Shown piece after piece: positions 15,740 to 18,330 of a stretch of 64,000 nt of DNA; within the stretch, counting starts at the first letter, position 1; each line of letters begins with the position of its first letter. The notes under the pieces were generated by a model. The model made no database searches. It saw only the letters and a program-made list of their open reading frames with translations, and was not told the origin of the DNA. Source of the stretch: Gammaproteobacteria bacterium (GTDB lineage Bacteria > Pseudomonadota > Gammaproteobacteria > Pseudomonadales > Azotimanducaceae); assembly GCA_026707945.1 (NCBI GenBank), contig JAPOVV010000038.1, positions 1-64,000 on the forward strand, in the 5' to 3' direction. Made by a program: the position numbers and the translations under genes.

Positions 15740-17476
15740 TTACTTCGGGGCGACGGTCTTGCTGGCAGCCGACGCTCGCTCAACGCTTTTGGTGACGTAA
15801 TACTGTTGTGCGTACGACAGAATGTTGTTCATCAACCAATAGAGAACCAGCCCGGCAGGAAAAAAGACGAACAGAACAGTGAAAAGTATGGGCATGATCT
15901 TCATCATTTTCTGTTGCATCGGATCTGGCATCGGCGGATTGAGCATTTGCATCAATAGCATCGACGCACCCATCAAAATCGGCAGCACAAAGTACGGGTC
16001 CATGATCGATAGATCCTGGATCCACAGGAAAAACGGTGCCTGACGCAATTCGACGCTTTCATAAAGCACCCAATAGAGCGCCAAGAACACTGGCATCTGC
16101 GCAAGCATCGGCAGGCAACCGGTCATCGGGTTGACTTTTTCCTTCTTATAAAGCGCCATCACTTCCTGGCTAAGGCGTTGCCGATCACTACCGAATCTTT
16201 CTTGTATGCGCTTGATCTGAGGCGATACCGTCCGCATTCGCGCCATGGACTTGTAACTCATAGCCGACAACGGGTAGAGCAGCAATTTCACGATGATCGT
16301 GAGAATGATGATCGCCACGCCCCAATTGCCGACGAGACCATGTGCAAACTCAAGCACATAGAACAAGGGAACAGATAAGAACCACAGAATGCCATAGTCG
16401 ACCGTCAGTTCTAAGTTATCGGCGATCGCATCCAGCGTGCGTTGCGTCTTCGGACCCGAGTAGAACCGAAGAATGAACTCGCCGGACTCGCCGGGATAAA
16501 CCACGCTTTCTGGTCCAGTTAGACCGAAGCGGTACTTGCCAGACGAATCCCGCATACCGTAATAGAGGTAATTGGCGTTGTCGTTGACTACCCAAGTCGA
16601 TAGGAAATAGTGCTGCAGGATCCCGATCCACCCGCCATCCACTTCCTCACGGAATCGTTCCTCGTCCACATCGTCGAAGCCAATTTTTTCGTAGCGCGTC
16701 TCGTTCGTGGTTAGTGCAGCACCTAGATACGGTCGCGGGCCAAGAAACGTTGTCGACTCTTCGCGTTTGCCGTCATGTGTAAGTTGCGCGAATAGATTTA
16801 CAACAAACGGTTCAGTCGACCTATTGTCGACTTCGTGCACAACATCGACCAAGTACTGTTGGGGGTCAATCTTGAAGATTTTTCGAACCGTAATGTCTCC
16901 TCCATCAAGCGCCCGCGTGGTGCTGAGAACAATGTCTTGGGGCGCATTAACGATTTCATAATCAAGTTGTGGTGCTGAATATTGCGGTTTAGTGGGAGAC
17001 CCGTCGAATCCATCCTCGCCGAGCAACCCGCTTTGCGCGATATACGTGCGATTCGAGTTCTTCTGAAGGAGTGTCGTAGGAACATCCGGATATTCCAAGG
17101 AAATCGGATGTTCCAGCAGTTCAATGAGACGAATGTCACCGCCCACCGGGTCGATCTTCATTCGCATCAATGGCGTATTGATATTTATGAGGTCGCTCTC
17201 ACGGCTTGTCAGCCGCGCGGTCGATTGCTCCGTCTGACTACGCCGAACCAATGATGCATCAGGCACATCACCTGACTCCGCGGCTAACACTGGTACGTCG
17301 TCAACTCGCTGATCCGGCGCCATTGGTTCTTCAGATTCGACAACTAGCGGCGCTTCCTCCGACGGTGCTGGTGGGGTTGCGCCACCATAGTCCTCCGTCC
17401 ACTGCATGACGAGTAAGTAAGCGCAGATTCCCAATCCGAGCAACAACCCGTAGCGGAGGATTTCCTGAATGTTCAC
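15740..17476 (-). CDS. yidC: membrane protein insertase YidC
   Basis: Inner-membrane insertase for Sec-dependent and Sec-independent proteins, including F0 subunit c, 578 residues. It has the gram-negative layout: N-terminal membrane anchor ([19 protein letters not shown]), a large periplasmic beta domain (about 70-350), then five C-terminal helices with [20 protein letters not shown] and the [20 protein letters not shown] segment. GTG start 17476 overlaps the yidD TGA as GTGA. Confidence 0.98.
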
Positions 17477-17775
17477 GAAACGGCTCGCTCTGTGTGATCC
17501 AGATCTTGATGTCGCCAGGGCGCTAAAACGAACGTTTCTGGAACAAGATCAACGCCGCCGTGGCAAAACGGATGACATCTAGCAATACGCATGGCGGCGA
17601 GATACAAACCACGAAGGACACCAAACCGATTGATGGCTTCGATCGCGTATGAAGAACAGGTTGGATAAAACCGACAGCACGGAGGGAATAGCGGAGAGAT
17701 ACAAACCTGGTAGGCGCGAATCACCGATCGAGTCGCTCTACGAGCCAGCGTTCGTTGTTTAAGCGTAGTTTTCAA
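17473..17775 (-). CDS. yidD: membrane protein insertion efficiency factor YidD
   Basis: Small peripheral membrane protein of 100 residues assisting YidC. The family core is complete: [20 protein letters not shown] with its three cysteines, [19 protein letters not shown] and [18 protein letters not shown] start at 17775, 9 nt after the rnpA stop; no ATG or GTG gives a full-length protein. A basic N-terminus ([12 protein letters not shown]) suits an amphipathic membrane-binding helix. Confidence 0.95.
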
Positions 17776-17784
17776 GCTAACACT

Positions 17785-18276
17785 TCAGCTGCGTCTTCTA
17801 AGGCATGTCGACGCCGTTGAGAGCCACCCATGGATATGTTGCGGCTCTTCAATTCTTTGACGTAAAGACACCATGAGATCAATGCAGACAAATTCGCCTT
17901 GGTTTTGACGAAACCACTCCCGTATCGCCCGTTTCAGGTAATTCCGACACGTAGCCTTTTTCGCATATCGTTTCGCGATAGCGAGACCTAACCGCGGAAA
18001 CCCGAGTTTGTTCTCGACGCCCGTAATAGCGATGGGACCAAACGTTTTTCTCAGCGTAGCGTTTCGGAAAACGTGATCGATCTCTCGTTTTTTCGTGATT
18101 CGTACGCGACGGGGAAACCCGAGCTGCGTTCGGTGCGCTATGGCGCTAACCGTTTCCGCTGGCGAGCTCGACGCGCGTTGATCACCTTGCGGCCGTTCTT
18201 CGTCGACATACGTTTGCGAAACCCGTGAGTGCGTTTCCGGGAGATATTGCTGGGTTGGAAAGTGCGTTTCATCCAA
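17785..18276 (-). CDS. rnpA: RNase P protein component, possibly extended through rpmH
   Basis: Protein subunit of ribonuclease P, which trims tRNA 5' leaders. The core is clear ([21 protein letters not shown] near residue 52, then [21 protein letters not shown], the RNR-type signature, though R-N-Y here). The only ATG, GTG or TTG in frame before the core is TTG 18276, directly after an in-frame TAA and 4 nt before the rpmH ATG. Starting there gives 163 residues, 45 more than usual, with rpmH nested inside out of frame. The alternative is a rare ATA start at 18141 overlapping the rpmH stop, giving 118 residues, the normal length. Sequence alone cannot decide. Confidence 0.85.
18138..18272 (-). 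CDS. rpmH: 50S ribosomal protein L34
   Basis: Complete 44-residue L34: [20 protein letters not shown], then [20 protein letters not shown] and RLAP. Highly basic, as expected for a protein buried in 23S rRNA. ATG at 18272, TAG at 18138-18140. It lies wholly within the open rnpA frame but in a different reading frame. The predicted promoter at 18303-18330 would leave a leader of about 24 nt with no clear Shine-Dalgarno. Confidence 0.98.
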
Positions 18277-18302
18277 TTAGGGCTGGAATCGGCAAGTGGG
18301 GA

Positions 18303-18330
18303 ATTGTAGAAAGCGATGGCGGGGTGTCAA
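18303..18330 (-). promoter_or_regulatory. sigma-70 promoter for rpmH-rnpA-yidD-yidC
   Basis: The bottom strand has TTGACA (18325-18330, a perfect -35), a 16-nt spacer and TACAAT (18303-18308, five of six matches to the -10). Transcription would begin near 18296, about 24 nt before the rpmH ATG and about 20 nt before the rnpA-frame TTG, so one short leader would serve both starts. Confidence 0.7.

Follow-up and report, generated by a model that had tools for sequence, protein, structure and literature searches.

RnpA is essential in bacteria where studied, and the question raised by the present locus is where its gene begins. The window (the whole stretch of DNA that was analysed, 64,000 nucleotides) carries rpmH, rnpA and a third gene in this order on the minus strand, as read from the open reading frames. 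The third gene is named from a ten-residue motif, which we take to be that of yidD. An earlier note on this DNA, made from the letters of the window, described rpmH as nested inside an extended, out-of-frame rnpA. The features concerned are listed below.

18303..18330, minus strand: sigma-70-like promoter candidate for an rpmH-rnpA mRNA, TTGACA-16 nt-TACAAT, 11/12 matches
18274..18276, minus strand: TTG, possible start of an extended 163-residue RnpA (not favoured), 4 nt 5' of the rpmH ATG
18138..18272, minus strand: rpmH, ribosomal protein L34, 44 residues, stop TAG; TIGR01030, 76.3 bits (NCBIfam)
18150..18157, minus strand: weak purine-rich stretch within rpmH, candidate ribosome binding site for the ATA (anti-SD energy; weak evidence)
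18139..18141, minus strand: ATA, proposed rnpA start codon, ATAG overlap with the rpmH stop, in 6/6 clade species
17785..18141, minus strand: rnpA, RNase P protein, 118 residues with the ATA start; TIGR00188, 46.0 bits, residues 14-94
17473..17775, minus strand: yidD-like gene, TTG start, 3' of rnpA, served as control gene

The rpmH and rnpA products both score above the NCBIfam cut-off, and TIGR00188 gives 44.8 bits to the 163-residue form of RnpA versus 46.0 bits to the 118-residue form. Among 37 aligned sequences, the RnpA residues R111, N112 and R116 of the RN..KR signature are invariant and K115 is nearly so. What the earlier note had read from the letters was confirmed. An in-frame TAA is followed at once by TTG 18276, from which the rnpA frame runs on uninterrupted for 163 residues until its stop, whose last base is 17785; the TTG stands 4 nt before the rpmH ATG (TTGGATG); and no other ATG, GTG or TTG precedes the RnpA core, the next in-frame ones being 263 and 266 nt past rpmH, well within the protein. 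The candidate promoter placed at 18303-18330 was also found, as a promoter-like TTGACA/TACAAT pair of a kind for which 0.7 sites are expected on average in shuffles of the 1-kb region. TTGACA with a TACAAT- or TAAAAT-like hexamer also occurs 5' of rpmH in four relatives (G010, G016, G017 and G006). The true anomaly of the locus is the lack of a usual start (ATG, GTG or TTG) close to the RnpA core, rather than the open frame.

The extended frame in close relatives

The genus comprises 18 genomes, with rpmH found in 18/18 and an rnpA match in 18/18. Six species form a clade with rnpA in one frame relative to rpmH, namely the species of the window (G000), G010, G001, G016, G017 and G006. The remaining 12 members have rnpA in another frame, and 11 of these have a usual start after rpmH (TTG 3-9 nt past rpmH in ten, GTG at +19 in G011); G013 has GTG codons solely inside rpmH. 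A search of viral contigs for relatives found none, and a search of genome contigs returned G016 and one distant match labelled Bacteroidales.

The main reading of the earlier note was modelled on Thermus, in which rnpA and rpmH are nested with start codons 4 nt apart (AUGGAUG) at a site said to use GGAGG (Feltens et al. 2003, as described in PMC9841429). By this analogy, TTG 18276 (ATG in G010) and the rpmH ATG would form a double start, and some ribosomes would make a 163-residue RnpA by passing through rpmH out of frame. The window, G001 and G010 do resemble the arrangement outlined in that source, with an rnpA frame that stays open across rpmH, out of register with it, and NTG at -4 of rpmH (TTGGATG, TTGGATG and ATGGATG, respectively), and the heptamer of G010 is identical to the one given there for Thermus. 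In G016, G017 and G006, however, rpmH contains a TAA that interrupts the rnpA frame, and usual starts are lacking from there to the core; therefore the long protein is impossible in 3/6 species. The stop arises in G016 and G017 from the L34 codons for FRK (TTT CGT AAA) and lies further on in G006; NTG at -4 of rpmH is absent in these species, and the first usual start past the stop is 185 nt (G016), 83 nt (G017) or 89 nt (G006) after rpmH, inside the conserved core. A usual start able to give an intact RnpA is thus missing in three species and is available to G000, G001 and G010 only via the extension, at 69 codons before a fixed landmark in RnpA. Stops in relatives across rpmH were named by the earlier note as telling against its Thermus-like reading, and with such stops in three of the five nearest relatives that reading failed this test.

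The phylogeny of the clade, (G006,(G001,(G010,(G000,(G016,G017))))) with support of 0.94-1.0 inside the clade, places the broken-frame pair G016 and G017 as a branch within an open-frame grade. The extension, if ever used, would therefore be dispensable. Frame statistics were taken from 250 loci with a located rpmH. The offset frame is open through rpmH in 27/98 loci with rnpA in that frame versus 35/152 with rnpA elsewhere (Fisher p = 0.45), so that it is no commoner when rnpA uses it. The caution of the earlier note that such a frame can be open by chance was borne out by the latter fraction and by synonymous shuffles of L34, 11-13% of which leave it open. An open frame through rpmH, being present in 62/250 loci, is no evidence for a Thermus-like extension. 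The combination of an open frame and NTG at -4 is rarer and speaks for the extension; it occurs in 3/98 loci with rnpA in that frame (G000, G001 and G010) versus 1/152 elsewhere, and so once otherwise in the 250 loci. The single other case is a chance example (L156, from G082), in which GTGGATG precedes rpmH, the offset frame is open and rnpA lies in another frame. The ATGGATG of G010 (L036:1497-1503) is an exact double start with the rnpA frame open across rpmH and would be the prime place to look for a long RnpA.

No Shine-Dalgarno match was found in the rpmH leader (18273-18296 in the window) of any of the six species, in contrast to the GGAGG reported for Thermus in PMC9841429. The best anti-SD duplex in the leader of the window is unfavourable at +0.3 kcal/mol, computed with anti-SD letters that do not come from this genome. 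L34 is expected in bulk, yet its leader lacks such a match in all six. Compared with the Thermus nest as far as that source describes it, the clade differs further in that the arrangement is missing in half of its species, with the other 12 genus members using another frame; in that the window has TTG rather than AUG, AUGGAUG occurring only in G010 among the six; in that its leader has no Shine-Dalgarno sequence to serve both starts; and in that ATAG is what is conserved. Sequence divergence is of little help. The rpmH genes of G000 and G010 differ at 13 places, each of which alters the extension; this is weakly telling against it and is expected because the rpmH wobble base is the first codon base of the extension. 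Silent changes in the extension number 0 when G000 is compared with each other clade species, as also expected from the frames, and carry little weight.

An extended RnpA is accordingly considered unlikely, and as a general explanation for the clade it was ruled out by the TAA in three species, the nesting in the tree, the open-frame counts and the leader devoid of a Shine-Dalgarno match. A long RnpA is possible as a second or side product in G000, G001 or G010, given their open frames. The Thermus-like nest is not the best explanation for the open frame, an observation that is real but was mislabelled, and the locus is probably no such nest maintained by selection.

An AUA codon in the rpmH stop

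The usual start is missing near the core, ATAG is conserved at the rpmH/rnpA junction in 6/6 clade species, and the upstream frame is broken in three relatives. We propose, with a probability of about three in four, that rnpA of the clade starts at a non-canonical AUA (18141-18139) sharing bases with the rpmH UAG, which would give an RnpA of about 118 residues. This start was the competing view in the earlier note and gains support because the ATA is kept in all six species.

ATA 18141-18139 overlaps the rpmH TAG at 18140-18138. This stop sets two of its three bases and leaves free only the one that is also the wobble position of the last L34 codon. Four clade species have CCA as their last L34 codon, G001 has GCA and G006 has GTA, so that the amino acid varies while the final A is constant. 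Among the 12 genus members outside the clade the wobble base is T in eight, C in three and G in one, making A 6/6 in the clade versus 0/12 in the rest of the genus (Fisher 5e-5, kinship not corrected for); the six species being related, conservation of the ATA could reflect few events. From the last in-frame stop to the FP motif, the ATA at -4 is the sole ATN or CTG codon common to all six; a second ATA occurs at +2 in G017. Translation from the ATA would yield 118 residues and put the FP motif eight positions past the initial residue, as in a normal RnpA N-terminus. The E. coli RnpA has about 119 residues. The anti-SD energy before the ATA is -3.5 in the window and ranges from -0.5 (G016) to -6.5 across the six, the real sites being slightly better than synonymous shuffles (mean -1.7, sd 1.8); with anti-SD letters that do not come from this genome, a Shine-Dalgarno sequence before the ATA was not used as proof.

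With this start, a single mRNA from the promoter at 18330-18303 would direct synthesis of L34 at a high rate, and ribosomes finishing L34 would stop on the UAG. A small share of the terminating ribosomes would then re-initiate with initiator tRNA at the overlapping AUA, and the weakness of this start would hold RnpA far below L34, both being made from one mRNA. We infer use of the AUA in the cell, its coupling to termination, the low yield and a dependence on IF3. The junction is like the AUGA-type overlaps named in PMC9841429, in which an upstream stop and a downstream start share a 4-nt overlap, and is unlike them in that the clade start is AUA, giving AUAG.

Near-cognate starts of this type are known from Staphylococcus aureus, where infC, ccpN, cvfC1 and citZ have AUA or AUU starts. 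Such codons lowered the yield in reporters: in poor medium they gave ~10% of what AUG gave, and for ccpN up to 30% in rich medium (PMC13009471). That source has ribosome profiling and an extended Shine-Dalgarno sequence for infC, ccpN and cvfC1, whereas the start proposed here has a weak one, overlaps a stop and is judged from sequence. The word rnpA is absent from the main text of PMC13009471, and a literature search, in which coverage of subscription journals was thin, found no report of rnpA with an AUA-type start. If the proposed start is true, an AUA conserved as part of the L34 stop would offer a simple means of making two proteins in very different amounts from one mRNA.

Another near-cognate codon could start rnpA in place of the AUA, for example ACG at +8 after rpmH, which stands in the same place in 5/6 species, two codons before the LGFP stretch. 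We consider this quite improbable. ACG is a weaker start codon, G006 has AAG at this position, and the ATA is present in all six at the rpmH stop, with the L34 wobble base always A. A -1 frameshift near the rpmH end, yielding an L34-RnpA fusion, was dropped as scarcely credible for want of a conserved slippery site; rnpA does lie in the -1 frame and CCCCA precedes the stop in G010, G016 and G017, with AAAAAGG in G010 and G017, but G000, G001 and G006 have no such stretch and ATAG alone is the junction feature common to all six.

Most likely, then, this small group of uncultured bacteria has an rnpA that seems to be without usual start codons and to begin at a rare, weak AUA in the rpmH stop. 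Gene finders that require ATG, GTG or TTG would miss, truncate or wrongly extend rnpA here.

Starts of rnpA across the family and beyond

The earlier note had also named ATG or GTG at the position of 18141 in relatives as evidence against the extended form. Neither occurs there within the six clade species; in other genera of the family, starts with the same -4 overlap were found in 10/159 loci, as TTG (9) or GTG (1) overlapping a TGA stop. Usual starts at the identical overlap again favour an overlap start. The 159 loci are 163 minus G068, G089, G022 and G211, in which rpmH was missed by the pattern although all four show L34 sequence.

An rnpA with no ATG, GTG or TTG 16-60 codons before the fixed landmark was counted in 27/153 loci of the family (of 206 genomes searched, 177 matched and 153 entered the count), versus 4/105 loci outside the family (p = 7e-4, uncorrected for kinship or choice). 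The 27 include three (G000, G001 and G010) whose usual start at 69 codons lies beyond the 60 limit, and which count only with the long form set aside. Scoring G118 as having a usual start (its landmark was misaligned) lowered the count from 28 to 27, and the 27 tends to be low in that a start within rpmH was scored as usual if it lay no more than 60 codons ahead of the landmark. The outside loci came from 287 matches in an order sample and 259 in a class sample, both samples including a few family genomes. The 4/105 is possibly biased, the 105 being 59 best-scoring loci, 40 hand-picked low in the class match list and 6 from the rnpA search that also gave the genus matches, and one of the four outside cases (L244) is doubtful. 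L253, L282 and L294 are gammaproteobacterial rnpA genes outside the family in which, likewise, no usual start lies acceptably near. As a control, the yidD gene has a usual start in 54/54 found (57 loci given, eight of the 27 rnpA cases among them); rpmH was of no use as a start-codon control because its search pattern required ATG, GTG or TTG. Judged from these genomes, rnpA in the family of the window is often without a usual start.

Candidate starts could be named in several of these cases. In genus g53 (G127, G131, G134 and G144), the third or second codon past the rpmH stop or the next in-frame stop reads ATT or ATC, and there are few alternatives. In genus g56, the same codon position, +45, is ATG in G182, GTG in G178 and ATC in G175, G179, G181 and G187. 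In genus g57, G189 and G191 have ATC, and G195 has ATA or ATC. Less clear family cases are seven genomes of genus g42, G167 (CTG), G112 and G213. In the g42 loci (L131, L135, L148, L151, L160, L175 and L176), the rpmH stop and rnpA share bases as TTAG, CTAG, ATAG or GTAG, and usual starts are lacking within an acceptable distance. The overlapping codon varies there (TTA, CTA, ATA, GTA), and therefore the start is not set by the overlap by itself; no near-cognate codon is common to all seven.

Weak starts and infC

The textbook weak-start gene is infC. In the family, ATT or ATC stands at the expected place of infC in 21/21 readable loci, while 9/30 gave no pattern match, and 15/21 readable loci have no in-frame ATG, GTG or TTG ahead of the conserved part. 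Weak starts are thus in use in the family of the window, as infC illustrates. If true, recurrent near-cognate starts would place rnpA beside infC as a habitual weak-start gene and suggest checking other "missing" essential genes for such starts.

The infC of the six species with the ATA-rnpA (L203, L204, L205, L312, L313 and L314) starts at GTG, and therefore infC offers no example of a weak start from within the clade. In 11/11 other readable genus members, G013 not among them, infC has ATC, ATT or ATA. A swap of starts between rnpA and infC in the genus would be one evolutionary event and is taken as a lead only. A broader proposal, which we regard as tentative and rather doubtful, is that rnpA has repeatedly been selected to use sub-standard starts, with AUA, AUU and AUC having evolved separately in several genera of the family and holding RnpA low relative to L34. 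In the clade of the window, the weak start would have moved between genes, infC passing from AUU or AUC to GUG and rnpA taking AUA, which would shift the sensitivity to IF3 from the gene of IF3 itself to that of RNase P. The swap was rejected as a general rule, since G195 (rnpA ATA or ATC) and G167 (rnpA CTG candidates) both have infC at ATT.
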